From assembly GCF_020171465.1 (NCBI RefSeq), contig NZ_JAIUZR010000006.1, forward strand, positions 248,001 to 312,000: 64,000 nucleotides of DNA. Reading direction: 5' to 3'. The DNA comes from Lutimonas saemankumensis (GTDB lineage: Bacteria; Bacteroidota; Bacteroidia; Flavobacteriales; Flavobacteriaceae). Both the position numbers and the translations under genes were made by a program. Positions within the stretch are counted from its first letter, which is position 1; every line of letters begins with the position of its first letter. The notes under the pieces are model-generated. The model searched no databases, was not told the origin of the DNA, and saw only the letters and a list, made by a program, of their open reading frames with translations. Shown in pieces: positions 26,349 to 47,434 of this stretch.

Positions 26349-26350
26349 TC

Positions 26351-27817: not shown

Positions 27818-27836
27818 AAAATTAAATAGTAAAAAG

Positions 27837-30800
27837 ATGAAATATTTAAAGGCAATTTTAGTATTAATTATTTTTGGAGCGACCTTTGTTGCTTGTGAAA
27901 AGAATGAGGTTTCCTATGCTTTTCAGGAAATATCTGCTCCAACAAAAGTAACAGCTGTTTTTGATATCGCTCAAGACGATTCAGGAACAGTAGTTGTAAC
28001 CCCATCCGGAGAAGGAGCTCAATCCTTCAATGTTTATTTTGGTGATGTGGAGGATGAAGAACCTGAGGTAGTTACCCCGGGAGGATCATTAGAACACGTT
28101 TATGGAGAAGGTGAGTATCAGGTACGTGTAGTAGGTGTGGGGTCAACGGCCCTTACCAGTGAGTTTACCCAGGTTATCACGATCTCTTTCAGTGCACCCG
28201 AAAATTTAGAAGTTACCATTGATCAGAGTGATCCGAATCCGAAACTGGTTAAAGTAAGTGCCAAAGCTGATAATGCAACGATGTTCGATGTTTATTTTGG
28301 CGACGTTGAAGATGAAGAACCCACTCCGTTAATGCCGGATGATGTTGCAGAGCATATTTATGCGGAAGCCGGTGATTATACAATTCGAGTGGTAGCCGTT
28401 GGGGCCGGATCAGAAACTTTGGAATATTCTGAAGAAATCACCATCGGAGATGCTGAAGGAGCAATGGAATTACCAATAACATTTGATGACCCAACAGTAA
28501 ATTATGCATTCGGAACATTTAACGGTACCACCTTCGAAGTTGTTGATAACCCGGATGAGTCAGGTGCTAATGATACAGCTTCCAAAGTTGGTGCGATTAC
28601 GAATTCAGGTGTAAACTGGGAAGGTATAGCTGCAACGTTGGGAACTCCGGTTGATTTTAGCGGAGACAATAAAACGATCATGATGAAATTCTGGTCAGAC
28701 GTTGAACTACCTGTTTTGTTAAAATTTGAAGACGGGGTGGATGACGCTAGACAAACTGAAGTTACAGCTACTCACGGTGGTACTGGATGGGAAACCTTGA
28801 GTTTTAATTTTGCTACGGATGCGATCAAGAGTTATATCGATGGAACCCAGGGAGCAGGTGAACCATTTGTTCCAACCGGTCAATACAACACCATAGTAAT
28901 CTTTGTTGATGGCCCTGGCCAGGCAGCTGGTACATTCTATCTTGATGATATTGAGCAAGAAGCTCTTGAGTTAAATTGCGTCTCGGAAATGGATGAAAAT
29001 ATTGATCCTGCCAACGGAGATATCAACTGGACATTTAAAACAAAAGATTTTGATCATACATTTGAGCCATTTGGCAACATTGCTTCAGAAATCGTTGACA
29101 ACCCAAATCCAACAGGCATTAATGAAAGCTGTAATGTACAGCAATATGTCAAAACAGCAGGATGTGAAACCTGGTCTGGCGTTGGAAAAGGATTGGCTAA
29201 TGCCATCGATCTGACTACTTCTCCAAATAAAGTATTCAAGTTGATGGTATACGGTGAGGCCAAAACAACTACGGTTACCTTGCAGCTTGAATTTGAGCCA
29301 TTCCCAAATACGGATCCTTTGGTAGCCATAAATCAGGAAATGACCAAAGTTGGGGAATGGGAAGAATTGACCTTTGATTTTTCAGAGCACACAGATAAAA
29401 CTTTCAAAAGTATCATCGTATACTTCGACAGGGACAATACCTGCGATGACGCGGTTTATTATTTTGATAACTTAGTGCAAGTAGAAGGCGGTGGGTCCGG
29501 TCCTGCACCTCAGGATCCAACAGAAGCTGCTCCGGCACCTGTTGAGGACGAGGCGAATGTAACTTCTGTTTACAGTGACTCTTATACGGATGTGGCAGGA
29601 ACAGACTTCTTCCCGGATTGGGGGCAGTCTACATCCTTTGAGGAAGTTGATTTTAATGGAAATAAAGCGATTAAATACACAAACCTGAACTATCAGGGTA
29701 TTTCATTGGGAAGCCAGGTGGATGCCTCAGTTTATGAAACCATTCACATTGACGTATGGTCTAATGATTATACTTCTGTACCTTTCTTTTTGATCAGTGC
29801 AGGTTCGGGAGAAAAGAGTGTAGCATTAAACCTCAGCCCAAATCAATGGAACAGCATTGATATTCCACTATCAGAGTTCACTGATCAGGGACTGGCTATA
29901 AATGATATTTTCCAGTTCAAGTTTGATGTACAGCCTGATACAGGAGGAGCGATCTATATTGACAATATTTACTTTTATAAGTCAGGAGGAAGTGCGCCTA
30001 GCGGGCCAACAATGGCAGCACCTGTACCGGGTCAGGATGCATCAGATGTAACCTCTGTCTTTAGTGATGCCTACACCGATGTTGCGGGAACAGACTTTTT
30101 CCCGAACTGGGGGCAGTCTACCACTTACGAGCAGGTTGACTTAATGGGAGATGCGGCGATCAAATACTCAAACATGAATTATCAGGGGATAAGCCTTGGT
30201 GAAAACGTTGACGCATCAGTTTATCAGACCGTCCATATTGATGTTTGGTCAGATGATTATACCTCGGTTCCTTTCTACTTGATAAGCGCAGGATCCGGAG
30301 AAAAGAGCGTCGCCTTGAGTTTGACTCCAAATCAATGGAACAGTATTGATATTCCTTTATCTGAATTCACGGATCAGGGCTTAGCCGTAAATGATATTTT
30401 CCAGTTCAAGTTTGACGTACAGCCTGATAACGGAGGAACGATTTATATTGACAACCTTTATTTCCATGGAAAAGATTCAGGTGGTGCCGCGGGTAAACTG
30501 GAGTTGCCAATAAGTTTTGATGATCCAACAGTAACCTATGAGTTTGGAACTTTCAACGGGGCATCCTACGAAGTGGTTGATAACCCTGATCCTTCGGGAG
30601 CAAACCCAACAGTTTCCAAAGTTGGAGCCATCACGAATTCAGGTGGACCATGGGAAGGAGGACTTTTCAATCTGGAAACGGCAGTTGATTTCAGTGGATC
30701 GAATAAGACGATTACGATCAAATTCTGGTCCAACGTGGCAACGCCGCTGTTACTGAAATTTGAGGGTGGTGTAAATGGTGAAAGACAGAACGAGGTTGTC

Positions 30801-30998
30801 GCAAATCATGGAGGAACTGGATGGGAAACGATCAGTTTTGATTTTGCCTCAGATGCCATTAAAAGTTATATAGATGGATCACAAGGAGCAGGTGAACCCT
30901 TTGTCCCAACCGGACAATATGCGTCCTTGGTATTATTTGTAGATGGACCAGGAAACACAGCAGGGACATTTTATATGGATGATATAATTCAAGAATAA
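27837..30998 (+). CDS. Large modular surface glycan-binding lipoprotein
   Basis: A 1053-residue lipoprotein (FVAC, Cys20) with no catalytic motif. Modules by self-comparison: two PKD/Ig-like domains (about 32-117 and 120-204, both with FDVYFGDVEDEEP-like turns), module A1 (211-374), a distinct module B (about 381-550), modules C1 (567-715) and C2 (728-877), and module A2 (889-1053). A, B and C modules end in a (Y/F)xDNxY or YxDDI strand, like beta-sandwich carbohydrate-binding modules. Position after susD makes it the surface glycan-binding protein that recruits beta-glucan. The C1/C2 linkers are Pro/Ala-rich. Binding specificity is not predictable by eye. Confidence 0.88.
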   Translation: MKYLKAILVLIIFGATFVACEKNEVSYAFQEISAPTKVTAVFDIAQDDSGTVVVTPSGEGAQSFNVYFGDVEDEEPEVVTPGGSLEHVYGEGEYQVRVVGVGSTALTSEFTQVITISFSAPENLEVTIDQSDPNPKLVKVSAKADNATMFDVYFGDVEDEEPTPLMPDDVAEHIYAEAGDYTIRVVAVGAGSETLEYSEEITIGDAEGAMELPITFDDPTVNYAFGTFNGTTFEVVDNPDESGANDTASKVGAITNSGVNWEGIAATLGTPVDFSGDNKTIMMKFWSDVELPVLLKFEDGVDDARQTEVTATHGGTGWETLSFNFATDAIKSYIDGTQGAGEPFVPTGQYNTIVIFVDGPGQAAGTFYLDDIEQEALELNCVSEMDENIDPANGDINWTFKTKDFDHTFEPFGNIASEIVDNPNPTGINESCNVQQYVKTAGCETWSGVGKGLANAIDLTTSPNKVFKLMVYGEAKTTTVTLQLEFEPFPNTDPLVAINQEMTKVGEWEELTFDFSEHTDKTFKSIIVYFDRDNTCDDAVYYFDNLVQVEGGGSGPAPQDPTEAAPAPVEDEANVTSVYSDSYTDVAGTDFFPDWGQSTSFEEVDFNGNKAIKYTNLNYQGISLGSQVDASVYETIHIDVWSNDYTSVPFFLISAGSGEKSVALNLSPNQWNSIDIPLSEFTDQGLAINDIFQFKFDVQPDTGGAIYIDNIYFYKSGGSAPSGPTMAAPVPGQDASDVTSVFSDAYTDVAGTDFFPNWGQSTTYEQVDLMGDAAIKYSNMNYQGISLGENVDASVYQTVHIDVWSDDYTSVPFYLISAGSGEKSVALSLTPNQWNSIDIPLSEFTDQGLAVNDIFQFKFDVQPDNGGTIYIDNLYFHGKDSGGAAGKLELPISFDDPTVTYEFGTFNGASYEVVDNPDPSGANPTVSKVGAITNSGGPWEGGLFNLETAVDFSGSNKTITIKFWSNVATPLLLKFEGGVNGERQNEVVANHGGTGWETISFDFASDAIKSYIDGSQGAGEPFVPTGQYASLVLFVDGPGNTAGTFYMDDIIQE
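28467..30995 (+). repeat. Internal module repeats of the glycan-binding lipoprotein gene
   Basis: Two repeat families within one gene: A modules at 28467-28958 and 30501-30995, and adjacent C modules at 29535-29981 and 30018-30467. The pairs share long identical peptides, for example SAGSGEKSVAL and SIDIPLSEFTDQGLA for C, and TGWET, KSYIDG, QGAGEPFVPTGQY for A. The layout A-B-C-C-A suggests duplication of C in tandem and copying of A to the end. Confidence 0.9.
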
Positions 30999-31009
30999 AA
31001 ACACATAAA

Positions 31010-32644
31010 ATGAAAAATATACTTTATTTATTTGCTGCATTTCTTTTTTTCGGCACCATTGTTTGGAGTTGTCAGGAAGAAGTACCCGAACTGGGAACCT
31101 TATATGTTCCCACAAACCTGGGGGTTTCGGTGGATATTCAATCGGACGGTTCAGGATTGGTGAACTTTCAGGCAAGTGCCACAGATGCGTTAAACTATCA
31201 TTTCTATTTTGGGAACAGCCCATCTGAAGATCCTTTTGTTTCTTCTGATGGTAAGGCCTCAAATTTTTACAAAAAAACCGGAACAAACGACTATCTGGTA
31301 AAAATAGTAGCCTTTGGTGCCGGAGGTGTGTCTTCGAGTATAACTGAAGAGATTACTGTTTTTGTTGATTTTGAAGTGCCTTCTGAAATTATTAAGGCGC
31401 TTACCAACAACGGTTCTAAAGAATGGTACTGGAAACAAGATGTTTCGGGTCACCTTGGCGTAGGACCTCAGTTTAATGATGCTGGAGAAGTAGTTTCGGA
31501 CCCGACATATTATGCTGCGGCACCCAATGAAAAAGAAGGGCTTTGCCTTTATGAGGATGTTCTAACTTTTACTGATAATGGTGACGGGACCTTTGGATAT
31601 ACTTTGGAAAACCAAGGAGATACATTCTTCCATACGGATGAAATACAGGATGCTGTTGGGGAACCAAGCCCGGGATATGACGCATGCTATGCTTATGACA
31701 CTACCGGAAATAAAGATGTTCTTTTTAGCCCAACGGATTCAGGGGTAAATCCATCGACAGGTATAAATATGGAATTTACCAACGGAGGCTTCATGAGCTA
31801 TTACCTAAATTCAAGTTCGTACGAAATTATGTATATCACGGATACTGAGATGAAAGTCAGGGTAATACAGAAAAGAAATGGCCTGGCTTGGTACCATATT
31901 TTTACCTCAGAGAAAACGGCTTCACCTGATCCTGAATTTACAGACCTGGTCTGGCAGGATGAGTTTGATACGGATGGAGCCCCTGCAGATGCCAACTGGA
32001 ACTATGATATTGGAACCGGAAGCAATGGTTGGGGTAACTTTGAAGAGCAGTACTATACGGACCGTCCTGAAAATGTTATCGTTGCCGACGGAGTCTTGAA
32101 AATTACCGCCAGAAAAGAGAATTTTTCAGGAAAAGGATATACCTCAGCAAGGCTTAAGACGCAGGATAAATTTGATTTCACTTATGGAAGAGTTGATGTC
32201 AAAGCTAAGGTTGCAGGCGGAGGAGGTACCTGGCCCGCAATTTGGATGCTTGGGTCGAGTATAACCACTGTAGGCTGGCCAAAATGTGGCGAAATGGATA
32301 TCATGGAATATGTAGGGAATAAACCGGGATACGTACAGAGTGCGATCCATACCCCTTCCAGTTCAGGTGCCACAGTAAATGTAAAATCAACAACAATCGA
32401 GAATGAAACCACTGAATTCCATGTGTATTCGGTAATCTGGTCAGAGGGCCAAATTAGTTTCCTTATTGATGATCAAAGATTCTATACCTATAAACCTGCA
32501 GAGCAGAATGATAGCACCTGGCCTTTTGATGCACCTCAGTTCCTAATTCTGAATGTGGCTATGGGAGGTAACTTAGGTGGTGCTATTGATCCAAATTTTA
32601 CTGAATCTACCATGGAGATTGATTATGTAAGAGTGTATCAGTAA
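31010..32644 (+). CDS. GH16 beta-glucanase (laminarinase-type) lipoprotein
   Basis: A 544-residue lipoprotein (VWSC, Cys21) with the same plan as the GH16 at 18462: a PKD-like domain (about 30-120), the LTNNGSKEW...GHLGVGP domain (about 123-305) and GH16 (about 308-544). The active site GEMDIMEYVG gives Glu428, Asp430 and Glu433. It ends in IDYVRVYQ. It is the fourth gene of the susCD operon, 11 bases after the glycan-binding protein gene and before a strong terminator. It should act at the cell surface, cutting polymer for SusCD import. Confidence 0.93.
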   Translation: MKNILYLFAAFLFFGTIVWSCQEEVPELGTLYVPTNLGVSVDIQSDGSGLVNFQASATDALNYHFYFGNSPSEDPFVSSDGKASNFYKKTGTNDYLVKIVAFGAGGVSSSITEEITVFVDFEVPSEIIKALTNNGSKEWYWKQDVSGHLGVGPQFNDAGEVVSDPTYYAAAPNEKEGLCLYEDVLTFTDNGDGTFGYTLENQGDTFFHTDEIQDAVGEPSPGYDACYAYDTTGNKDVLFSPTDSGVNPSTGINMEFTNGGFMSYYLNSSSYEIMYITDTEMKVRVIQKRNGLAWYHIFTSEKTASPDPEFTDLVWQDEFDTDGAPADANWNYDIGTGSNGWGNFEEQYYTDRPENVIVADGVLKITARKENFSGKGYTSARLKTQDKFDFTYGRVDVKAKVAGGGGTWPAIWMLGSSITTVGWPKCGEMDIMEYVGNKPGYVQSAIHTPSSSGATVNVKSTTIENETTEFHVYSVIWSEGQISFLIDDQRFYTYKPAEQNDSTWPFDAPQFLILNVAMGGNLGGAIDPNFTESTMEIDYVRVYQ

Positions 32645-32658
32645 TTTAGTTATTAAGC

Positions 32659-32693
32659 AAAAACGCAAGTAATGGGGACTTGCGTTTTTTTTT
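32659..32693 (+). terminator. Rho-independent terminator of the susCD operon
   Basis: A 12-base-pair stem (AAAAACGCAAGT/ACTTGCGTTTTT) with a seven-base loop and an extended T-run, 14 bases after the GH16 stop codon. It separates the susCD-GH16 operon from the GH30 gene cluster. Confidence 0.9.
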
Positions 32694-32771
32694 ATCAAGC
32701 ATTGTCAAATTAAGACTAAATAAACTTGTCAGTTTATATTATTTTTACATGAATTTTAAAGAAATTAGGAC

Positions 32772-34253
32772 ATGATAAATAAAAAAATAGTACTGATTCT
32801 TGTATTTTGTTCCCTGGTTATTGGCTCCCTGATAACTGGTTTTTCAGGGGAAACTGGTATCAATAAGTCTGAAGTGTTAAATTTCTCAAATACAAAAGTT
32901 TACACAACGGCTCACGGTACTGAATTTAATCTCAAGGAAACAGGAGAAGTTGAATTCGGGAAGTTTAAACAACCTCTTGAAACGGAAGCCTCGATTTTGG
33001 TGAATACAGATCGATTACATCAAACGTTCGTAGGTATTGGAGCTGCATTGACTGATGCTTCAGCAGAAACTTTTTACAAGCTGGACAAAGATCAACAGGA
33101 TCTTTTTATGGAGGCTTATTACAGTATTGACAAAGGAATTGGATATTCTTTAGGAAGAACGATTATTCATAGTTGTGATTTTTCATCAGGTAGCTATACC
33201 TATGTTGAAGAAGGGGATGCAGATTTAAAAACCTTCAACATTGATCACGACCGTCAATTCAGATTGCCATTTACGAAAAAAGCCATTGAAGCTGCCGGTG
33301 GAGAATTACTGATGTATGCAAGTCCCTGGAGCCCTCCTGCCTTTATGAAGACCAACGGAAATATGCTACAAGGAGGTAAATTGAAGCCTGAGTATTATCA
33401 GTCGTGGGCCAATTATTACGTGAAATTTATAGAGGCTTATGAAAAAGAAGGAGTTCCAATTTGGGGCTTGAGCATTCAAAATGAGCCCATGGCAACACAA
33501 AGATGGGAGTCATGTATTTATTCGGCGGAAGAGGAGAGAGATTTTTTGAAGAATTTTTTGGGCCCCACGCTTGAAAAATCAGGAATGGGAGATAAGAAAG
33601 TAATCGTTTGGGATCACAACCGAGATTTGCTTTTTGAAAGAGCCAATGTGATCCTAAGTGACCCTGAAGCCAATAAATATGTTTGGGGAACCGGGTTTCA
33701 CTGGTATGAAGACTGGAAAGACGGGACACCAATGTTTAAGAATGTGGCGGGTGTTAATGATGCATATCCGGATAAAAAACTTATCTTCACAGAAGGATGT
33801 AACGAAGGTTATAATATCGAGCGGCTCGAGAAGGACGATCCGACCCTGGCAGAAAGGTATGGCAAAGCCATGATAAACGATTTTAACAACGGAACGGTAG
33901 CCTGGACAGACTGGAATATTTTACTGGATGAAACAGGAGGGCCAAATCATGTTCAAAATTTGTGTTTTGCCCCGGTCCATGGTAATACGAAAACGGGAAA
34001 ACTCATGTTTACCAGGTCGTTCTATTATATCGGGCATTTTTCGAAATTTATCAGGCCGGGAGCAAGAAGAATTTCTACCGGTACAACGGCCAATCATTTG
34101 AGTGCCACTTCCTTTTTGAACAAGGATGGAAGTGTTGTAGTTGTGGCCATGAATACCAGTGATAAAGAGTTGAATTATATGTTGAGTATTGACAATAAAA
34201 CAGCAGAACTGAGTATGCCGGCACATGCCATTCAGAGCATTATCCTAAAATAG
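32772..34253 (+). CDS. GH30 family glucosidase/glucanase
   Basis: A 493-residue GH30 enzyme. An uncleaved or Sec-type signal sequence (about 1-25, no clear lipobox) precedes a (beta/alpha)8 barrel with a beta-sandwich at the C-terminus. FVGIGAALTDASAETF, YASPWSPPAFMK and WGLSIQNEP are family hallmarks. Acid/base is Glu238 (QNEP) and the nucleophile Glu341 (IFTEGC). In laminarin loci GH30 enzymes typically remove beta-1,6-linked glucose branches; that role is inferred from context. It opens the second gene run of the locus and is a paralogue of the GH30 at 41694. Confidence 0.9.
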   Translation: MINKKIVLILVFCSLVIGSLITGFSGETGINKSEVLNFSNTKVYTTAHGTEFNLKETGEVEFGKFKQPLETEASILVNTDRLHQTFVGIGAALTDASAETFYKLDKDQQDLFMEAYYSIDKGIGYSLGRTIIHSCDFSSGSYTYVEEGDADLKTFNIDHDRQFRLPFTKKAIEAAGGELLMYASPWSPPAFMKTNGNMLQGGKLKPEYYQSWANYYVKFIEAYEKEGVPIWGLSIQNEPMATQRWESCIYSAEEERDFLKNFLGPTLEKSGMGDKKVIVWDHNRDLLFERANVILSDPEANKYVWGTGFHWYEDWKDGTPMFKNVAGVNDAYPDKKLIFTEGCNEGYNIERLEKDDPTLAERYGKAMINDFNNGTVAWTDWNILLDETGGPNHVQNLCFAPVHGNTKTGKLMFTRSFYYIGHFSKFIRPGARRISTGTTANHLSATSFLNKDGSVVVVAMNTSDKELNYMLSIDNKTAELSMPAHAIQSIILK

Positions 34254-35870: not shown

Positions 35871-38800
35871 ATGAGTAAGAATCAGATTTATTTAGGAGAG
35901 ACGGAAACATCGTTTGAAGCAAAAGAAGTTACGGGAAAGTTAATTTCTTTCGAAAATGAAAATTACTATAAAATAGAGAACAGCGATGCAATGAGGCCTT
36001 TTTTCATGAGCATTGTGAGCGATTCAAATCACTGGATGTTCATTTCCAGCAATGGAGGGCTTTCTGCCGGAAGGAAGGATAGTGAATCATCGTTATTTCC
36101 CTATTATACTGATGATAAAATTACAGAATCCGCTGATATCACCGGAAGCAAAACCTTATTACAGGTGCATAAAGGTGAAAAGACCTATCTGTGGGAACCA
36201 TTTTCTGATCGATTCTCAGGAATTTATAAAGTTCATCGTAACCTGTATAAGAATAGTTACGGGAACAAAGTCCTTTTTGAAGAAATCAATGAAGACCTGG
36301 GCCTTACATTCCGATACCAGTGGAACTCAAGTAACCGATTTGGTTTTGTAAGAAAATCAAGTCTGATCAATAATTCTTCATCTGCGATTGAAACAACGGT
36401 TCTTGATGGTATTCAGAACATTTTACCCTATGGCGTTAATGAAGGATTACAGAACAGCCGAAGTAATTTGGTGGACGCTTATAAAAAGTGTGAACTCGAG
36501 GCTGATGTGGGAATCGGGATTTATGCCCTCAGTGCTATTATTGTTGATAAGGCAGAACCAAGTGAAGCCTTAAAGGCCACCACGGTTTGGTCAGTGGGGA
36601 CGGAGAACCCAACCTACCTGCTTTCGTCTTTACAGGTAGACAATTTTAGAAGGGGCAAAGAGATTACCCAGGAAGTAGATATTAAAGCCGAAAAGGGAGC
36701 CTATCTGGTATGTCAGAACCTGGTTGTCGAGCCTGACTCTGAGAAGAACTGGATGTTGGTGGCCAATGTAAATCAATCCATGCTTGACGTAAGCGACATT
36801 GCTCAGATGCTAAAATCAGACGAGGACCTTGAGTCCGTGGTTCAGGAAGATATTGAGCTGGGATCGAAAAACTTACTGGAGTTGAATGCGGCCTCTGATG
36901 CCTTGCAGCTAACGGCGGATAAATTGATGAATACAAGGCACTTTGCCAATACGCTTTTCAATATTATGCGTGGAGGTATCTTTGATGATGGCTACCAGAT
37001 TGAAAAGTGGGATTTTGTTAAATATCTGGAAATAGCCAATAAAAAAGTATTCAAGAAAAAGGAAACGCTTCTCGCCAATCTACCCGATAAATTCACCTTA
37101 AGTCATTTAAAGGGACTGGCTCAAAATGATGACGATAAAAATTTCAAAAGGCTGGCAACGGAGTATATGCCTTTAAAATTCAGTAGAAGGCATGGGGACC
37201 CCAGCAGGCCCTGGAACAGATTTTCGATCAATACTACAAGTGAACTGGATGGTTCCAAAATATTGGATTACGAGGGGAACTGGAGGGATATCTTTCAAAA
37301 CTGGGAAGCGCTTGCGCATTCCTATCCTGAGTTTATCGAGAGCATGATCCATAAATTTTTAAACGCCACAACTTTTGATGGTTACAATCCTTATCGGGTT
37401 ACAAAAGACGGATTTGACTGGGAGACCATTGAGCCGGATGATCCATGGTCTTATATTGGATACTGGGGCGATCATCAGATCATCTATTTACTGAAGTTCC
37501 TGGAATTCATTGAAGATCACTACCCAAATCAACTGGGCAGCTATTTTCAAAAGGATTTTTTCGTTTATGCCAATGTACCTTACAGAATCAAGAGTTACGA
37601 GGATATTTTAAAAAACCCAAAGGATACCATTGATTTTGATCATGATTCTGATCAGAGAATCGCACAGAAAAGAATTGAATTAGGAGCGGACGGAGCCTTG
37701 TTGAGAGATAAGAATTTCTTCATTTACAAAGTAAATCTCATTGAGAAATTACTGGCAACCGTTCTGGCTAAATTATCCAATTTTATTCCCGAAGGAGGGA
37801 TATGGATGAATACCCAGCGGCCCGAATGGAACGATGCCAATAATGCGCTTGTTGGGAACGGTGTGTCCATGGTAACCTTGTATTATTTAAGGCGATTTCT
37901 GAATTTCTTTGAAGGAATTGTAGAAAAAGTTGCTGACGGAGATAATGAAGTCTCCATTGAACTTGCAGAATTTTTTAATAAAGTACACGCAACGTTCATT
38001 GAGAATAAAGGAATTCTTGCCGGAAAAGTATCAGATAAGGAAAGAAAGGTTGTCTTAGACGGATTGGGTCATGCAGGCAGTGATTATCGTCTAGGGATTT
38101 ACGAAAATGGATTTTCAAGTGATAAGGGTGCAATTTCTAAAAAGGATCTCTTGAGTTTTCTTGAGATCTCAAAAAAGTACCTGGAGCATTCTATCGAGGC
38201 AAACAGGAGAAGCGACAAGCTTTATCACGCCTATAATCTAATGACTGTTGAAAACGATGAAGAGGTTTCTATTTCTTATCTGCCTGAAATGTTAGAGGGT
38301 CAGGTGGCGGTCTTAAGTTCAGGCTACATCTCTGGTAAAGAATCGCTTGAACTCTTAAATGCCTTAAAAAGCAGTGCCCTGTTTAGAGAGGACCAGTACA
38401 GTTATATTCTTTACCCTGATAAAGAATTGCCTCGATTTGATGTGAAAAACAATATTGATAGTGACAGGGTCAAGGAATCAGCCCTGTTGACAAAATTATT
38501 GGCAGATGACAACAGACAAGTCATTGAAAAAGATATTCAGGGCGTATGTCACTTTAACGGAACTTTCAATAATGCTGACAGTTTGAAAAAAGCATTGTCT
38601 GAGCTGCCTGAAAGCTATTCCGTTTTAGTTGAAAAGGACACCCAATTGGTACTTGATATTTTTGAAGACATCTTTGACCACAAATCCTTTACAGGAAGAT
38701 CAGGAACTTTCTTTGGTTATGAAGGATTAGGTTCAATATACTGGCACATGGTTTCCAAGCTGGTACTGAGTATCCAGGAAACCTGTCTTGCGGCTATTGA

Positions 38801-39329
38801 AGAAGGGCTTGATGATGTTACCATTGGGAAGCTTCTCGAACACTATTATGAGGCGAGTGAAGGTATTGGAGTCCATAAATCACCGGAACTTTATGGTGCC
38901 TTTCCTACGGATCCCTATTCACATACGCCTGCAACCAAAGGTGCGCAGCAGCCGGGAATGACAGGACAGGTCAAGGAGGATATTTTAAGTCGCTTTGGAG
39001 AGTTAGGTGTATTTGTCAGACAAGGAGAAATATACTTTGAACCTAACCTGTTGAGAAAGGAAGAGTTTTTGCGAAATCGGCAAACTTTCAGTTATGTTTC
39101 TATAGACAAAGAGTTAAAGGAAATAGAGGTAGATAAAAACTCCCTATGTTTTACCTATTGTCAAACACCTGTAATCTATAAGTTAGATAGCGAAGAAGGT
39201 TTACAATTGATATTTAATAAGGGCAAGGAAGTTAAATCTTCTGAATTGAAACTGGACGCGGATACGAGTAAAAAGTTATTTCAAAGAACCGGAGAGATTC
39301 ATCAGATTATAGTTTCCATTAAAAAATAG
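35871..39329 (+). CDS. GH149-type beta-1,3-glucan phosphorylase
   Basis: An 1152-residue cytoplasmic protein (no signal peptide) whose length and blocks fit the GH149 beta-1,3-glucan phosphorylases. N-terminal beta-sandwich region (about 1-330), a helical linker, an (alpha/alpha)6 barrel (about 430-1000) and a beta-jelly-roll tail. NTQRPEWNDANNALVGNG carries the probable catalytic Asp655, equivalent to the Asp of GH94 enzymes in DWND; DPWSYIGYWGDHQIIYLLK and FSRRHGDPSRPWNRF are other family-like blocks. It should phosphorolyse beta-1,3-gluco-oligosaccharides from the non-reducing end to glucose 1-phosphate. It follows an MFS sugar porter and precedes a GH17 gene after eight bases. Confidence 0.85.
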   Translation: MSKNQIYLGETETSFEAKEVTGKLISFENENYYKIENSDAMRPFFMSIVSDSNHWMFISSNGGLSAGRKDSESSLFPYYTDDKITESADITGSKTLLQVHKGEKTYLWEPFSDRFSGIYKVHRNLYKNSYGNKVLFEEINEDLGLTFRYQWNSSNRFGFVRKSSLINNSSSAIETTVLDGIQNILPYGVNEGLQNSRSNLVDAYKKCELEADVGIGIYALSAIIVDKAEPSEALKATTVWSVGTENPTYLLSSLQVDNFRRGKEITQEVDIKAEKGAYLVCQNLVVEPDSEKNWMLVANVNQSMLDVSDIAQMLKSDEDLESVVQEDIELGSKNLLELNAASDALQLTADKLMNTRHFANTLFNIMRGGIFDDGYQIEKWDFVKYLEIANKKVFKKKETLLANLPDKFTLSHLKGLAQNDDDKNFKRLATEYMPLKFSRRHGDPSRPWNRFSINTTSELDGSKILDYEGNWRDIFQNWEALAHSYPEFIESMIHKFLNATTFDGYNPYRVTKDGFDWETIEPDDPWSYIGYWGDHQIIYLLKFLEFIEDHYPNQLGSYFQKDFFVYANVPYRIKSYEDILKNPKDTIDFDHDSDQRIAQKRIELGADGALLRDKNFFIYKVNLIEKLLATVLAKLSNFIPEGGIWMNTQRPEWNDANNALVGNGVSMVTLYYLRRFLNFFEGIVEKVADGDNEVSIELAEFFNKVHATFIENKGILAGKVSDKERKVVLDGLGHAGSDYRLGIYENGFSSDKGAISKKDLLSFLEISKKYLEHSIEANRRSDKLYHAYNLMTVENDEEVSISYLPEMLEGQVAVLSSGYISGKESLELLNALKSSALFREDQYSYILYPDKELPRFDVKNNIDSDRVKESALLTKLLADDNRQVIEKDIQGVCHFNGTFNNADSLKKALSELPESYSVLVEKDTQLVLDIFEDIFDHKSFTGRSGTFFGYEGLGSIYWHMVSKLVLSIQETCLAAIEEGLDDVTIGKLLEHYYEASEGIGVHKSPELYGAFPTDPYSHTPATKGAQQPGMTGQVKEDILSRFGELGVFVRQGEIYFEPNLLRKEEFLRNRQTFSYVSIDKELKEIEVDKNSLCFTYCQTPVIYKLDSEEGLQLIFNKGKEVKSSELKLDADTSKKLFQRTGEIHQIIVSIKK

Positions 39330-39337
39330 ATGACATC

Positions 39338-40624
39338 ATGAAAAACTATTTGAAAAGTTTAGTCGCATTACTGGTCATTTTGATGCTAGTGTCATGCGGA
39401 AAAAATTCTAAAAAAGAAGAGCAATCAGAGAACAATGAAAATCATATGACGACATCAAAAGAACTTACAGCAGCTGATATACTGGGAAATCCAAAATATC
39501 TGGCCATGTCTTACGGAGGATATCGATACGCGGATCATGATATTGAACCAACAATCGATGAGCTTAAGGAGGATATGAAAATATTATCCGCAATGGGAAT
39601 CGGGATTGTTCGGACCTACAAAGTTCATTTGCCACAAGCTGCCAATTTACTTCAGGCGATCACTGAGTTAAAAGAGGAAGATGAAAATTTTGAGATGTAC
39701 GTTATGTTAGGGATTTGGATCGATTGTAAAAATGCATGGACGGACAAGGAGCCGGATCACACTGTTGAAAGTGAAGCCAACAAGCCTCAGGTTGAAGAGG
39801 CCGTAAGGTTAGCCAATAAATACCCCGATATAGTAAAGGTAATGGCTGTTGGGAATGAGGCCATGGTTCATTGGGCGGCAACTTATTTTGTTCAGCCTTC
39901 TGTTATTTTAAAATGGGTTAATTATTTACAGGACCTTAAAAAATCTGGTAAACTTCCAAAAGATATGTGGATTACAAGTTCTGATGACTTTTCTTCCTGG
40001 GGTGGAGGCGGAGCTGAATACCACACGGAGGATCTTGAAAAATTATATCATGTTGTAGACTATGTGTCCATGCACACCTATCCTTATCACAACACGCATT
40101 ACAACCCAGAATTCTGGATCATTGAAGACGATGAGAAATTAACGGAAATTGAAAAAATTGATGCAGCGATGCTTAGAGCCAGGGATTTTGCAAAGAAGCA
40201 GTATGACAGCGTTGCCGGGTACATGAAAAGCATTGGGGTAAATAAACCTATTCATATTGGTGAGACAGGCTGGGCAACGGTATCTGACGGTTTTTATGGA
40301 GATGACGGGTCAAGAGCAACAGATGAATACAAAGAAGGTACGTACTATAAGCTCATGAGAGATTGGACGAACAAGGAAGGTATATCTTGCTTCTATTTCG
40401 AAGCTTTTAATGAACCCTGGAAAGATTCAAAAAACCCAATGGGCTCAGAAAATCATTTTGGATTGATGACCGTTGAAGGGGTCGCAAAGTATGCCATCTG
40501 GGATCATGTAGATGCCGGTACCTTTAAAGGCTTGTCCCGAGGAGGGAATCCTATAACAAAATCTTTTGGAGGTGATAAGGAAGACTTGATGAAAACAGTT
40601 TCAGCGCCACCAACAACTGAGTAA
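39338..40624 (+). CDS. GH17 beta-1,3-glucanase-like lipoprotein
   Basis: A 428-residue lipoprotein (LVSC, Cys20) with an acidic, Asn/Glu-rich linker to about residue 45. The GH17 barrel shows the acid/base Glu174 in AVGNEAMVHW, MHTYPY, and nucleophile Glu309 in HIGETGWAT, then FEAFNEPWK. It acts outside the cytoplasm on beta-1,3-glucan, probably as an exo-acting or oligosaccharide-trimming enzyme. Its C-terminus has an extension after the barrel (about 400-428) without a recognised fold. Its TAA is directly followed by the ATG of the next gene. Confidence 0.88.
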   Translation: MKNYLKSLVALLVILMLVSCGKNSKKEEQSENNENHMTTSKELTAADILGNPKYLAMSYGGYRYADHDIEPTIDELKEDMKILSAMGIGIVRTYKVHLPQAANLLQAITELKEEDENFEMYVMLGIWIDCKNAWTDKEPDHTVESEANKPQVEEAVRLANKYPDIVKVMAVGNEAMVHWAATYFVQPSVILKWVNYLQDLKKSGKLPKDMWITSSDDFSSWGGGGAEYHTEDLEKLYHVVDYVSMHTYPYHNTHYNPEFWIIEDDEKLTEIEKIDAAMLRARDFAKKQYDSVAGYMKSIGVNKPIHIGETGWATVSDGFYGDDGSRATDEYKEGTYYKLMRDWTNKEGISCFYFEAFNEPWKDSKNPMGSENHFGLMTVEGVAKYAIWDHVDAGTFKGLSRGGNPITKSFGGDKEDLMKTVSAPPTTE

Positions 40625-41693: not shown

Positions 41694-43193
41694 ATGAAAC
41701 ATAGTAATTATTTGATCTTGATTTTAGTTTTAGCCATAGCACAGGGATGTGAACCGAATGATAAGAGGCTTGAGGTAGTTGTCTATGAAACTTCCATTGC
41801 AGGAAAAAAACTTTCAAGAGTAACCGATTTTCCAGAAACGATTGGGCGAGAAACGTTAAAAATTGTACCTGAAGAAACCTATCAGACCATTACCGGTTTT
41901 GGAGGGGCCTTTACAGAAGCTTCGGCCTACTTGTTGAATAAAATGGGAAAGGAGAATCGCAAGAAAATAATCGATGCGTATTTTAGTCAAGAGGGAGCTA
42001 ACTATTCTCTGACAAGAACACATATGAATTCTTGTGATTTTTCTTTAAATAATTATTCTTATGCCCCAATTGAAGGCGATAAAGAATTGGAACATTTTTC
42101 GATAGAAGAAGACATAGATGATCTGATTCCTTTTATTAAAGACGCTATGGAGGCCTCTGAAGATGGTTTCAAGATCTTTGCTTCCCCATGGACAGCACCC
42201 CCTTGGATGAAAGACAACAATGATTGGGTTGGTGGGAAATTATTACCCAAATACTATGATACCTGGGCCTTATTCTTCTCTAAATACGTTGATGCTTATA
42301 AGGAAGAGGGCATTGATATTTGGGGTTTCACGGTGGAAAACGAACCTCTTGGTAATGGAAACAATTGGGAGAGCATGCATTTTTTACCCGATGAAATGAC
42401 ATACTTTGTTGAGCATCATCTAGGTCCAAAATTAGAGGCGGATGGTAAGGGAGAACTCAAAATATTAGGATACGATCAAAACAGAGAACACTTAAAGGAA
42501 TGGGTAGATTCTCAATATAAAAATGAGGAGAGCGCAAAATATTTTGATGGAACGGCCATACATTGGTATGCAAGTACTTTTGAAGTATTTCCCGAGGAGT
42601 TGCAATATGCCCATAAAAAGGCACCGGACAAGTTACTCATCCAATCTGAAGCCTGTATAGACGCTGAAGTTCCCGTTTGGAAAGATGATAAGTGGTATTT
42701 TGAAAAAGAAGCAACAGATTGGGGATGGGACTGGGCCCCGGAAAAGGACAAATATTTGCACCCAAAATATGCACCAGTTAATCGATATGCAAGGGATATT
42801 ATAGGCTGTTTGAATAACTGGGTAGACGGTTGGGTAGACTGGAATATGGTACTTGACAAAAAAGGTGGGCCTAACTGGTTTAAAAACTGGTGTATTGCAC
42901 CTGTGATTGTAGATCCGGAAAAGGATGAAGTGTATTTGACCCCACTTTATTACACCTTAAGTCACTTCAGCAAATTTATAAGGCCCGGAGCCACTCGAAT
43001 TGGGTTTGAGAATTCTGATAGTTCACTGATGGTTACGGCTGCTCAGAATGAAGATGGCTCGATTGCTGTAATTGTTTTCAATGAAGACGATCAATCAAAG
43101 AGCTTTAACTTGTCCTTACATGGAAAAATAAAGACAATCAATATTGATAAACAAGCAATTCAAACAATATTGGTCGCAAATTTACAGGAGTAA
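41694..43193 (+). CDS. GH30 family glucosidase/glucanase lipoprotein
   Basis: A 499-residue lipoprotein (AQGC, Cys19) of GH30. Family blocks ITGFGGAFTEASAYL, MNSCDFS, FASPWTAPPWMK and WGFTVENEP are present; acid/base Glu217 and nucleophile Glu319 (IQSEAC). It is a diverged paralogue of the GH30 at 32772 and, unlike it, has a clear lipobox, so the two may act in different places. A beta-1,6-glucosidase role on laminarin branches is the likeliest inference. It is 35 bases before the MFS-GH17 fusion gene. Confidence 0.92.
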   Translation: MKHSNYLILILVLAIAQGCEPNDKRLEVVVYETSIAGKKLSRVTDFPETIGRETLKIVPEETYQTITGFGGAFTEASAYLLNKMGKENRKKIIDAYFSQEGANYSLTRTHMNSCDFSLNNYSYAPIEGDKELEHFSIEEDIDDLIPFIKDAMEASEDGFKIFASPWTAPPWMKDNNDWVGGKLLPKYYDTWALFFSKYVDAYKEEGIDIWGFTVENEPLGNGNNWESMHFLPDEMTYFVEHHLGPKLEADGKGELKILGYDQNREHLKEWVDSQYKNEESAKYFDGTAIHWYASTFEVFPEELQYAHKKAPDKLLIQSEACIDAEVPVWKDDKWYFEKEATDWGWDWAPEKDKYLHPKYAPVNRYARDIIGCLNNWVDGWVDWNMVLDKKGGPNWFKNWCIAPVIVDPEKDEVYLTPLYYTLSHFSKFIRPGATRIGFENSDSSLMVTAAQNEDGSIAVIVFNEDDQSKSFNLSLHGKIKTINIDKQAIQTILVANLQE

Positions 43194-43228: not shown

Positions 43229-45574
43229 ATGTCTGCTATTACAAATAAGGTTCCCTTCGGTCAAAAATTGGCCTTTGGAGTTGGGATGTTTGCCAATCAA
43301 ATGTTTCCTGCTATTCTTGGAATATTTATGGTCTCTTTGGTCCAATCTTTTGGATTTAGTGGATGGATGTGGTCTCTTGTTTATTTTTTCCCCAGAATTT
43401 TTGATGCCATAACTGATCCCATCATGGGTTTCATTTCTGATAATACGAAATCGAAATACGGAAGACGCAAACCCTATGTTTTTATTGGAGCAGTTTTAAT
43501 GGGCGTGGCATTCACAGTCATGTGGCAGATCTATTCAGATAATGCTTTGCAATATAATTTTTGGTATTTCTTTTTATGGTCCGTTGTTTTTTATTTAGGG
43601 CTAACCTTTTTTAGTGTACCCTATGTCGCTATGGGCTATGAAATGAGTAATGACTTTCACGAAAGAACAAATATCATGGCTGTTGCTCAGTGGATCGGTC
43701 AATGGGCATGGGTCATCGCTCCATGGTTTTGGGTAATCATGGATGATCCGGACTGGTTCACATCTCAAGAGGTTGCGATTCGTGAATTGGCTGCATGGGT
43801 TGCCGTACCTTGTGCAATTGCCGCGATGATACCGGCTATATTCATTAAGAGTAAGTCCACACTCGATGAGAATTATGAGCCGCTGAATACCTCTAACATA
43901 GGAGGAAGTCTTTTGAAAATCCTGCAAAGCTTTGTAGATGCTTTTAAAATAGCAGAGTTTAGAAAGATATGCGGTGCAACGTTTTTGATTTTTAATGCAT
44001 TTAATACGGTAGCTGCCCTCACTTATTTTGTAATAGTCTATAAATTGTTTAATGGTGATGCTGCTGCCACTGGAATCTGGGTTGCCTTGTTTGGCTGTAT
44101 CGGGGCATTGGGGACAACCTTTATCGTCATTCCGGCGGTTACCAGGATGTCCAAAAAAATGGGAAAGATAAGGGCATTTATGTGGTCACAGGGGATTTCC
44201 CTCATAGGCTACACCATGATGTATTTTCTTTTTGTACCTGGTAAACCCTGGTTATATCTTTTCGCCTTGCCCTTTTTCTCTTTTGGAATTGGGAGTTTAT
44301 TTACGATAATGATGTCAATGACAGCCGATGTAATTGATATTGACGAATTGAATTCAGGAAAAAGACGAGAAGGTATTTTTGGTGCCATTTATTGGTGGAT
44401 GGTTAAGGTCGGTTTTGCGATTGCCGGAGCATTGAGTGGTATTATCATTGGTGTTGTAGGCTTCAATCCTGATTTAGCAACTACTGACCAGCAAGGGGCT
44501 GTTGATGGATTACACGCTTTCTTTTGCTTTTTTCCGGCGGTAGGAACCATCTTTGCAATGCTCATTATGAAGAGTTATGATGTAACAGAAGATCGTGCCA
44601 ATGAAATTCGTGAGGAACTGGATCGTCGCAAATCGGACATAAACCCGGACCTGGATGCAAAATATCAAGGTGGGAAACTACTTTCTTTGGTATCAAAGGA
44701 TTTGAAAGGCAGCGCCGGAACAGATATTGATTTTTCTGGAAAATCAAGTTCAGAAATAAAGAAACTGTATTTAGGTTCCTTAAAAAAAGGACTGCATGGA
44801 TTATGTTTCAGTCCCTATGCAGAAGGACAGGATATTGGTGATATCTTGTCTGAAAACCAAATTCGTCATCGAATGGAGGTTATAGCGCCTTATACAAAAT
44901 GGGTGCGCTCATTTTCCTGTACTGAAGGAAACGAATTCATTCCTGTAGCGGCTCGTGAAAAAGGGTTGAAAACCATGGCTGGAGCCTGGATCGAAGATAA
45001 TGAGAAGGAAAATGATCTGGAAATTCAGGCCTTGATCGAACAGGCAAGAAACGGAAATGTCGACATGGCCGTAGTTGGTAACGAAGTATTGTTAAGAGGT
45101 GAGTTAAGTACCGAGGATATAATTGATTATATCAAATTGGTCAAAGAAGCCCTGCCGGGTATACCTGTTGGATACGTGGATGCTTATTATCAGTTTGTGC
45201 AGAACCAGGACCTCGTAGATGCCTGTGATGTAATTCTTGTGAATTGTTATCCATTTTGGGAAGGATGTCATATAGATCAATCTACGCAGTATTTGCAGGA
45301 GATGTACAAGGCGGTTAAGAAAGTTTCCAAAGGTAAACCGGTGATCATTTCTGAAACGGGTTGGCCAAGTGAGGGAAGTACAACGGGTGATGCTGTAGCT
45401 TCTCAAGGTAATGCGATAAAGTACTTTATAAATGTTCAGAGTTGGGCTAATAAGGAAGGAATAGAAATATATTATTTCTCTTCTTTCGATGAATCCTGGA
45501 AGGTTCATCATGAAGGTGATGTGGGTCAGCGCTGGGGAATATGGGATAAAAACGAAAAACTAAAAAATATTTAA
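43229..45574 (+). CDS. GPH-type MFS symporter fused to a cytoplasmic GH17 domain
   Basis: A single 781-residue frame with two complete parts. Residues 1-470 are a 12-segment glycoside-pentoside-hexuronide symporter (DAITDPIMGFISDNTKSKYGRRKPY, PYVAMGYEMSNDFHERT, DVIDIDELNSGKRREGIFGAIYWW and the usual charged tail NEIREELDRRK). A 40-residue linker leads to a GH17 barrel (about 513-781) with acid/base Glu619 (VVGNEV) and nucleophile Glu709 (ISETGWPS). GPH termini are cytoplasmic, so the hydrolase should sit at the inner mouth of the transporter. The linker's GKLLSL resembles the N-terminus of the next gene's protein (GKLRSL), pointing to a duplication. Function: import and immediate processing of beta-1,3-gluco-oligosaccharides (inferred). 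Confidence 0.9.
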   Translation: MSAITNKVPFGQKLAFGVGMFANQMFPAILGIFMVSLVQSFGFSGWMWSLVYFFPRIFDAITDPIMGFISDNTKSKYGRRKPYVFIGAVLMGVAFTVMWQIYSDNALQYNFWYFFLWSVVFYLGLTFFSVPYVAMGYEMSNDFHERTNIMAVAQWIGQWAWVIAPWFWVIMDDPDWFTSQEVAIRELAAWVAVPCAIAAMIPAIFIKSKSTLDENYEPLNTSNIGGSLLKILQSFVDAFKIAEFRKICGATFLIFNAFNTVAALTYFVIVYKLFNGDAAATGIWVALFGCIGALGTTFIVIPAVTRMSKKMGKIRAFMWSQGISLIGYTMMYFLFVPGKPWLYLFALPFFSFGIGSLFTIMMSMTADVIDIDELNSGKRREGIFGAIYWWMVKVGFAIAGALSGIIIGVVGFNPDLATTDQQGAVDGLHAFFCFFPAVGTIFAMLIMKSYDVTEDRANEIREELDRRKSDINPDLDAKYQGGKLLSLVSKDLKGSAGTDIDFSGKSSSEIKKLYLGSLKKGLHGLCFSPYAEGQDIGDILSENQIRHRMEVIAPYTKWVRSFSCTEGNEFIPVAAREKGLKTMAGAWIEDNEKENDLEIQALIEQARNGNVDMAVVGNEVLLRGELSTEDIIDYIKLVKEALPGIPVGYVDAYYQFVQNQDLVDACDVILVNCYPFWEGCHIDQSTQYLQEMYKAVKKVSKGKPVIISETGWPSEGSTTGDAVASQGNAIKYFINVQSWANKEGIEIYYFSSFDESWKVHHEGDVGQRWGIWDKNEKLKNI

Positions 45575-45576
45575 AA

Positions 45577-46464
45577 ATGTCAGGAAGAGCGGGAAAATTA
45601 AGGTCCTTAACAGGAATTGATTACGAAGATAAAACGCAAAAAGGATTACAGAATTTATTCAAAAGGCTATTAAAGAACGGAATGCATGGTCTTTGTTTTA
45701 GCCCTTATGAAGAGGGTCAGGAACCAGGAGATCAGATCACCGAGGAGCAGATAAGAAGAAGAATGAAAATCATTGCGCCTTACACAAAATGGATTCGATC
45801 GTTTTCATGTACCGATGGAAATGAGGCCATCCCCAGAATTGCCAGAGAATTTGGATTAAAGACCATGGTAGGTGCATGGTTGGGGGATGATCCTGAAATT
45901 AATAAAAAAGAAATCGCCAAATTAATAGAGCTTGGAAACGAGGGCTATGTGGACATAGCGGCAGTAGGTAATGAGGTGATGTACCGAAAAGATCTGTCAG
46001 AAGAAGAGTTACTGGAATTTATGTATCAGGTTAAAGAGGCCCTGCCAGAGATTCCTATGGGGTATGTAGATGCCTATTATGAATTCTCAAACAGACCAAG
46101 AATAACGGATGCATGTGATGTTATATTAGCCAATTGTTATCCGTTTTGGGAAGGCTGCCCTCTGGAATATTCATTGGTCTATATGAAAGAAATGTACAAC
46201 CAGGCGGTGAGAGCAGCTAATGGTAAAAAGGTAATTATATCAGAAACGGGCTGGCCGACTATGGGAGCCAGCTTTGAAGGTTCACATCCTTCTTTTCACA
46301 ATGCGGTAAAGTATTTTATCAATACACAGCAATGGTCGGCGGCCGACAATATCGAGGTTTTCTACTTCTCCTCATTTGACGAGTCATGGAAAGTGGGAGC
46401 AGAGGGTGATGTTGGAGCCTATTGGGGAATCTGGGATAAGGACGAAAAACTAAAAAAGTTTTAA
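45577..46464 (+). CDS. Cytoplasmic GH17 enzyme, paralogue of the fused domain
   Basis: A 295-residue GH17 protein without a signal peptide. Acid/base Glu133 (AVGNEVMY) and nucleophile Glu223 (ISETGWPT) are intact. It aligns closely along its whole length with the C-terminal domain of the preceding fusion (shared HGLCFSPY, IAPYTKW, RSFSCT, ANCYPFWEGC, FSSFDESWKV, WGIWDK). It starts two bases after the fusion stop. It probably hydrolyses or transglycosylates imported beta-1,3-oligosaccharides; the two copies may differ in chain-length preference. Confidence 0.9.
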   Translation: MSGRAGKLRSLTGIDYEDKTQKGLQNLFKRLLKNGMHGLCFSPYEEGQEPGDQITEEQIRRRMKIIAPYTKWIRSFSCTDGNEAIPRIAREFGLKTMVGAWLGDDPEINKKEIAKLIELGNEGYVDIAAVGNEVMYRKDLSEEELLEFMYQVKEALPEIPMGYVDAYYEFSNRPRITDACDVILANCYPFWEGCPLEYSLVYMKEMYNQAVRAANGKKVIISETGWPTMGASFEGSHPSFHNAVKYFINTQQWSAADNIEVFYFSSFDESWKVGAEGDVGAYWGIWDKDEKLKKF

Positions 46465-46504: not shown

Positions 46505-47434
46505 ATGAATTATACAAAAGCTCTGAACATAGAGGCAGGAAATGCTATCTGTTATTCAGGATATAGAAAAGGACAATGGCCCGGGGGAAGCAGCCCCAGT
46601 TATGATGAAATCAAAGAGGATCTTTTGATACTTCAAAAAAACTGGAAATATCTCAGATTGTATGACTGCAATGAACATTCCGAAATGGTGTTGGAGGTGA
46701 TTCGAAAGGAAAAGTTTGATTTTAAGGTAATGCTCGGTGCCTATATTGTGGCAGAAGCCAATAATTATGGTTGCCCCTGGGGAGGAACCTATTCAGAATC
46801 TAAATTAGAGGAGAACAAAAAGATCAATATAAAACTCATAAAAAAACTGATCCGGCTGGCAAATGAGTATCCTGATATCGTTTTTTCTCTTTCTGCCGGT
46901 AATGAGGCCTGTGTTGACTGGACGGATCATTTTGTTCCCGTTGAGAATGTTATAAACTATGTGAGGATGATAAAAAAAGAGGCAAAGCAGCCTGTTACTT
47001 TTTGTGAGAACTACCTTCCCTGGTTGGATAAAATGAAGGACCTCGCTGAAGAAGTAGATTTTATTTCCATCCATACCTATCCTGTCTGGGAATACAAAAG
47101 AATTCATGAAGCGATGGATTACACAGTGAGTAATTACCTGTCTGTGGCCAATGCCTATCCTCATAAGCCGGTTGTTATTACAGAAGCAGGATGGACTACT
47201 TTTTCAAACGGAAAAGGAATTTATCCGAGTAACGTAAATGAGGATTTTCAAAGGATTTATTATAACGACCTTGTGGAATGGAGTGAAAAAGAAAATGTTC
47301 TAACATTTGTGTTTGAGGCCTTTGACGAATCCTGGAAAGGTTCTGATGATATGCTTGAACCCGAAAAGCACTGGGGCCTTTTTACTGAAGACAGGAAGCC
47401 CAAAAAAGTAATGCAGGAGAATTTGGGTAACTGA
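46505..47434 (+). CDS. Second cytoplasmic GH17 enzyme, divergent
   Basis: A 309-residue GH17 protein without a signal peptide, only distantly like its two neighbours and closer to the GH17 lipoprotein at 39338 in some blocks (SIHTYP, FEAFDESWKG). Acid/base Glu134 (SAGNEACVDW) and nucleophile Glu227 (VITEAGWTTF) are present. NYGCPWGGTYSESK after the third strand is a distinctive loop. Cytoplasmic action on oligosaccharides is inferred from the missing signal. It ends at TGA 47432-47434, beside a GH16 remnant. Confidence 0.88.
   Translation: MNYTKALNIEAGNAICYSGYRKGQWPGGSSPSYDEIKEDLLILQKNWKYLRLYDCNEHSEMVLEVIRKEKFDFKVMLGAYIVAEANNYGCPWGGTYSESKLEENKKINIKLIKKLIRLANEYPDIVFSLSAGNEACVDWTDHFVPVENVINYVRMIKKEAKQPVTFCENYLPWLDKMKDLAEEVDFISIHTYPVWEYKRIHEAMDYTVSNYLSVANAYPHKPVVITEAGWTTFSNGKGIYPSNVNEDFQRIYYNDLVEWSEKENVLTFVFEAFDESWKGSDDMLEPEKHWGLFTEDRKPKKVMQENLGN

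Follow-up and report, generated by a model that had tools for sequence, protein, structure and literature searches.

The stretch of Lutimonas saemankumensis DNA analysed here (64,000 nucleotides, called the window below) carries a laminarin PUL whose genes encode SusC- and SusD-like proteins, a PKD-domain protein, two GH16 and two GH30 proteins, a sugar porter, a phosphorylase, a GH17A-like protein, a gene joining an MFS transporter to a GH17 domain, and two further GH17 proteins. The features used in the analysis are as follows.

23298..34253 (+), SusC-like, SusD, PKD-domain protein, GH16 and GH30 of the laminarin PUL
35871..39329 (+), β-1,3-oligosaccharide phosphorylase, no signal peptide by eye (phmmer to 6hq6, 1636 bits, residues 6–1150)
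39338..40624 (+), GH17A-like protein, lipoprotein-like start by eye (Pfam GH17, 27.1 bits, just under the 28.2 cut-off)
41694..43193 (+), GH30 protein, lipoprotein-like start by eye (Pfam GH30)
43229..44569 (+), GPH-type MFS symporter domain, residues 1–447, 12 membrane helices (Pfam MFS_2, TIGR00792, sequence and fold like melibiose permease, MelB)
43403..43417 (+), Asp59 and Asp63, aligned with MelB Asp55 and Asp59 (phmmer alignment to MelB)
44570..44746 (+), charged linker, residues 448–506, in parts of low confidence (pLDDT)
44747..45571 (+), GH17 β-1,3-glucanase domain, residues 507–781, cytoplasmic by predicted topology (Pfam, phmmer, model, Foldseek)
45083..45085 (+), Glu619, catalytic proton donor position (aligned with MlGH17B Glu133)
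45092..45094 (+), Leu622, at the position held in the free GH17 by the acceptor-platform Tyr136 (alignment)
45353..45355 (+), Glu709, catalytic nucleophile position (aligned with MlGH17B Glu223)
45577..46464 (+), free GH17, 295 aa, similar to MlGH17B and in tandem with the fusion, no signal peptide by eye (identity to the fused domain 58%)
46505..47434 (+), third, divergent GH17, 309 aa, no signal peptide by eye (Pfam GH17, 29.9 bits; 28% identity, both catalytic Glu aligned)

We take the phosphorylase at 35871..39329 to be of the GH149 type. Downstream of the genes named above, the window holds a second GPH symporter and a GH94 phosphorylase; judged by eye, the phosphorylases and the free GH17s have N termini without a visible signal peptide. 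A search of the organism's own genome gave four GH17-domain matches at E 1e-5, all within the window. Three other genes lie in or near the locus: a 341-aa protein between GH17A and GH30 (40625–41650) with a lipoprotein-like start and weak matches to a GH2 barrel and to GH72; a CotH-kinase-type protein with a lipoprotein-like start, inside the locus (47638–49143); and a 936-aa protein (20205–23015), parts of which resemble hybrid two-component sensor proteins, and for which no Pfam match was found at 1e-5.

Domain architecture and predicted topology

The gene at 43229–45574 (+) is a single ATG-started ORF of 781 aa with no internal stop, which confirms the uninterrupted frame described in the first-pass annotation. 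Its product begins with a GPH-type MFS symporter of 12 helices, which a ~60-residue linker joins to a GH17 barrel. An AlphaFold2 model, computed with 52 fused proteins as input, has a mean pLDDT of 85.8 and a pTM of 0.64, and in Foldseek it matches MelB (target-normalised TM-score 0.85) and 4wtr (0.87).

Pfam MFS_2 (PF13347) covers residues 16–454 of the transporter half (203 bits, cut-off 27); profile positions 2–427 of 427 are matched and twelve helices can be counted in the helix list of the model, so the symporter is complete, as had been claimed. The full-length profile match, the MelB-like fold and the cation-site Asp pair together place it among GPH-like MFS_2 proteins, and melibiose permease is the closest solved structure by sequence (phmmer, E 3.9e-12). 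The NCBIfam gph model TIGR00792 gives 176 bits, below its curated cut-off of 231, and we therefore describe the protein as a divergent GPH-type symporter. In MelB, Asp55 and Asp59 belong to the cation site (a PDB title has 'cation-site mutant D55C') and Asp19 and Asp124 to the sugar site. Residues D59, D63 and K393, aligned with MelB Asp55, Asp59 and Lys377, are kept in 80/80 fused transporters of the clade to which the window protein belongs (clade 1), and Gln24 and Ser129 stand at the Asp19 and Asp124 positions in the same 80/80; the 24 unfused members among the 104 clade-1 transporters are identical to the fused ones at all five positions. A working cation site is plausible from these residues. 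The sugar-site pair, in contrast, is replaced, so the sugar carried cannot be read off from sequence. The window symporter thus shares with MelB its fold and cation-site Asp pair, and differs in its Gln and Ser and in bearing an enzyme domain.

The Pfam GH17 profile (51.8 bits, cut-off 28.2) matches only the C-terminal third of the second half (residues 688–779). A phmmer search with a 276-aa GH17 query extends the similarity, with its residues 38–259 matching the Rhizomucor miehei GH17 β-1,3-glucanosyltransferase 4wtp (E 2.8e-37), the closest solved structure, and in the model the barrel starts at about residue 507. In the alignment, Glu619 and Glu709 fall on Glu133 and Glu223 of the GH17 encoded next door, which at 295 aa has the same length as Muricauda lutaonensis MlGH17B and matching catalytic residue numbers; the available part of the MlGH17B paper (PMC11005184) gives Glu133 as proton donor and Glu223 as nucleophile. 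Both catalytic residues were said to be intact, and they are invariant in 52/52 aligned fusions (the window and 51 of 67 fused loci), with Glu at the 619 position in 82/82 fused domains. With the two catalytic Glu and the barrel fold, the domain belongs to GH17.

Between the halves, the charged tail expected after TM12 is present (residues 448–505, on average 10.5 K+R and 9.1 D+E). The model defines it poorly around residues 471–496 (pLDDT <50 at 471–478 and 493–496), and the positions of residues 447 and 525 have 72–85 residues between them in the 52 fusions; a long linker of variable length, taken with a pTM of only that size, does not indicate a fixed docking position. The idea that the linker is a remnant of the start of a free GH17, based on a GKL-x-SL motif, was not supported: the motif occurs in 23/83 fused linkers and 5/120 standalone starts (control, 1/498 stretches of the transporter part).

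With loop borders set from the model and the C-terminal tail excluded, K+R averages 17.5 per sequence in inside loops versus 2.7 in outside loops and is greater inside in 52/52 sequences, which predicts a cytoplasmic GH17 domain; inside loop L4 averages zero K or R over the 52. The even helix number of the MelB fold agrees, and the cytoplasmic placement proposed by the first-pass annotation is thus upheld by computation: the domain is probably on the cytoplasmic side of the membrane. LacS-type GPH transporters have a cytosolic C-terminal IIA domain of regulatory function; the window protein resembles them in its extra, predicted cytosolic C-terminal domain, and differs in that this domain is a hydrolase by family rather than a regulator. 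A periplasmic GH17 supplying the transporter with glucose from outside, as the wording on coupled hydrolysis and product uptake in the available part of PMC6246565 could be read, is disfavoured by the charge bias and helix count, by the lack of a signal peptide by eye and by a free sister GH17 that likewise has no export signal by eye. We consider it very improbable.

A known fusion and the predicted activity of its GH17 domain

The first-pass annotation knew of no described MFS–GH17 fusion; one has in fact been described and its GH17 part assayed. According to the available part of Unfried et al. 2018 (PMC6246565), FORMB_24740 of Formosa sp. Hel1_33_131 encodes an N-terminal 12-helix MFS transporter and a C-terminal GH17 (FbGH17B) in one gene. 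There the GH17 part, for which kinetics are given, hydrolysed only debranched laminarin, converted FbGH17A products to glucose and was named an exo-β-1,3-glucosidase; the same text calls the fusion common among marine Flavobacteriia and states that, to its authors' knowledge in 2018, no such transporter–CAZyme fusion had been described for other bacteria. FbGH17B is also referred to in the portions available of PMC11005184 and PMC13188888, the accessible text of PMC11345257 does not contain the word 'fusion', and an additional description elsewhere in the literature is possible. The fusion itself is therefore already known, and the window gene is a further member alongside FORMB_24740. Like it, the window gene joins a 12-helix MFS to a C-terminal GH17 in a single gene and lies inside a laminarin PUL with GH17A and GH30; of FORMB_24740, the GH17 part alone was assayed (PMC6246565, as far as its available text goes). 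The likeness rests on architecture, on gene neighbourhood and on a locus from a Formosa MAG (L036) that is 66% identical to the window protein.

The first reading left open whether imported sugars are cut or transglycosylated, and of these two, cutting is probably correct. The contrast is with MlGH17B and the free GH17 next door, which share with the fused domain a homologous barrel and its catalytic residues (MlGH17B and FbGH17B are 53% identical; PMC11005184, available part). MlGH17B is a free transglycosylase, predicted to be cytoplasmic, whose Tyr136 serves as acceptor platform in the accessible text of that paper, whereas the fused domains form a separate clade mostly without this Tyr. 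At the Tyr136 position, the 160 standalone domains have Tyr in 146 and Leu in the other 14; the 82 fused domains have Tyr in 2 (L090 and L116), Leu in 44, Met in 18, His in 15 and Phe in 3. The window domain, with Leu622, thus departs from the MlGH17B-type transglycosylase at the Tyr and keeps the Trp and Glu of the acceptor site. These residues (MlGH17B Trp191 and Glu192) are retained in 82/82 fused domains, so in the present set the Tyr alone is lost; the portion of PMC11005184 available to us states that the trio Tyr/Trp/Glu is not conserved in FbGH17B.

Transglycosylation of imported oligosaccharides to branched products, as by free MlGH17B, gains from the retained Trp and Glu and from the 58% identity to the MlGH17B-like neighbour, and the available text of PMC11005184 leaves room for an undetected transglycosylase activity of FbGH17B. 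The Tyr argument is also weakened by the 14 standalone domains that likewise have Leu, some of which may by their sequence be hydrolases. We nevertheless judge this activity improbable: Tyr136 is replaced in 80/82 fused domains, replacing the equivalent Tyr, Trp and Glu by Ala abolished transglycosylation in Rhizomucor RmBgt17A (PMC11005184, same portion), and the assayed homologue FbGH17B released glucose (PMC6246565). From its residues, we predict that the tethered GH17 hydrolyses its substrate rather than transglycosylating it, next to a free enzyme of the transglycosylase type.

The Leu-bearing free GH17s include those at L012 (12313), L028 (12331), L031 (12316) and L035 (12316), besides 10 other rows. 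They had been equated with an extra gene between two GPH transporters, wrongly, as these are different rows. That extra standalone GH17 is found at L017 (8822), L038 (9932), L083 (9938), L087 (6135), L092 (6073), L093 (5454) and L103 (6034), and the seven form one clade in the GH17 tree.

Conservation, history and proposed role of the fusion

The first-pass annotation had named a stop or frameshift hidden near base 44640 as the way in which the fusion could be an error. This, and an assembly artefact in general, is rejected. The frame is open in a second genome of the same genus (G025, 99% identical) and in a third genome (G253, 82%), and among the best 80 of 261 relatives in the genome collection, kept as loci, it is fused in 67 (one of which, L055, has a shortened GH17), the other 13 having a transporter without the fused domain; the ratio is biased, since resemblance to the fusion was the criterion by which these 80 were picked. 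In a family sample not chosen for fusion, 100/299 genomes match at E 1e-30 and at least 19/299, by reading of the rows listed, read through the junction in one uninterrupted frame (one row is cut by a contig start, and in G037 and G165 the contig breaks off short of the junction, which leaves these two matches undecided). A phylum sample gives 46/395 genomes matching at E 1e-60 and the fusion in 15/395 (12 rows of full length, and three more labelled as fused: G174, G640 and G338); both samples contain the window's own genome. Across ten fusion pairs, dN/dS ranges from 0.01 to 0.46 in transporter, linker and GH17 alike (29/30 values computable, dS being saturated for the GH17 part of the window–L007 pair), which means that the linker, too, is translated and constrained. 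The fusion junction is under purifying selection. Still larger multi-domain fusions, suggested by frames of 1025–1121 aa, were rejected, as transporter and GH17 are separate frames in 6/6 listed loci checked (L087, L088, L091, L092, L093 and L103). The window gene is thus a real, conserved and, judged by its residues, catalytically intact symporter–hydrolase fusion, whose enzyme is predicted to face the cytoplasm.

The history of the GH17 half was followed in 243 domains: 203 remained from 207 after removal of four under 230 residues (the fused L055 among them), and 40 standalone domains were added from 39 of 40 loci picked among listed hits; the standalone sample is not random. Three identical rows recur among the 82 fused and four among the standalone. 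In a FastTree phylogeny, 82/83 fused domains form one clade that holds 0/160 standalone domains, and IQ-TREE supports this clade at 97/81 (65 rows, 21 chosen and 44 random). The only fused domain outside is that of L124 (487 onward, genome G338), where a clade-1 transporter is joined to a free-type, Tyr136-bearing GH17 in a second, independent fusion; placing it inside the clade is rejected on the 65-row tree (AU p 0.0003, an optimistic value, as the groups were defined with the first tree already in view).

The transporter tree behaves differently. FastTree gives 17 fused/unfused changes among 140 rows (a few of them identical), 12 forced by starred branches, and IQ-TREE gives 14 among 68 rows (42 of 80 fused clade-1, 23 of 24 unfused and 3 outgroup), 10 forced; on the 68-row tree the label is clustered beyond chance, only 1/500 shuffles being as low. 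The simplest reading of these sequences is one old fusion followed by many whole-domain losses, plus the second fusion in L124, although gains of GH17 by gene transfer are also conceivable on a GH17 tree without a root. Close relatives can differ: at L084 (8525–9961) the transporter is 91% identical and unfused, with GH17A upstream, and no fused-type or free GH17 was found in the rest of that contig.

The fused GH17 lineage also occurs on a different GPH clade, at L089 and L129 (both G174), L130 (G640) and L090 (G069, on a long branch and of unsure placement); the transporter halves of L089 and L090 are 38% and 40% identical to that of the window. Synonymous divergence of the two halves differs, with non-overlapping 5–95% resampling ranges, in 4/7 pairs (L042/L044, L077/L080, L021/L022 and L036/L040) and does not differ in 3/7. 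The imbalance runs in both directions: the GH17 half is the more diverged in three pairs (for example, 0.85 against 0.18 for the transporter in L077/L080) and the transporter half in one (L042/L044, 0.53 against 0.15). Recombination between the halves, near the junction, is the likely cause on this sequence evidence, differing codon constraint being a possible other one. What is new here is the single fused GH17 lineage set against repeated switches on the transporter tree, the second GPH clade and the loss of the acceptor-platform Tyr.

We think it probable, with some reserve, that the gene supplies the inner-membrane step of laminarin utilisation, its symporter importing short β-1,3-gluco-oligosaccharides and its tethered cytoplasmic GH17 trimming them. 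The GH16, GH17A and GH30 enzymes would make these oligosaccharides outside the cytoplasm, the cation-driven symporter would take them in, and the C-terminal hydrolase would, alongside the free GH17 and the β-1,3-oligosaccharide phosphorylase, cut them to glucose and shorter oligosaccharides; removing imported sugar at the exit may keep a reversible symporter running inward. Import followed by immediate trimming is, from the sequence, the likely mechanism; that laminari-oligosaccharides are the cargo, and that the tether helps by clearing them at the exit, we infer.

A sparer account is that the fusion does no more than supply the two functions in equal amounts and place them at the membrane, with no hand-over of sugar, and that glucose or laminaribiose may be the main cargo of the transporter. 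The long, variable linker and moderate pTM agree with it, as does the replaced sugar-site pair, which leaves the substrate unreadable. Unfused transporters are, moreover, common (the 13 loci and 24 clade-1 proteins above). Against import with trimming, this also means that many species retain the locus and do without the tether; and since more energy would be saved by a phosphorylase in the same compartment than by hydrolysis, the use of a fused hydrolase is not obvious. Mere dosage, however, predicts neither a fused lineage that holds none of the 160 standalone domains nor its presence on a second GPH clade (L089, L130 and L090), and we regard this account as unlikely, if still a serious competitor. 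Import with trimming remains our preferred reading. That the fused lineage was not found free among the 160 standalone domains looks as if the role of the domain needs the tether, and the evolutionary pattern suggests that the fused domain performs a task different from that of the free enzyme. More tentatively, and at somewhat less than an even chance, the fused GH17s may be an obligately tethered hydrolase module, existing only on GPH transporters, lost whole rather than freed, moved to a second transporter clade and recombining against its transporter half, and selected for physical coupling itself.

Laminarin is a major marine carbon store (PMC6246565 and PMC11345257, in their available parts), and coupling its uptake and hydrolysis in one protein could affect the rate at which bacteria use it up. 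Closely related loci that have or lack the tether, such as those of Croceivirga (L008 fused; L013 and L086 unfused), constitute a natural experiment, and whether tethering a hydrolase to a symporter helps is directly testable.
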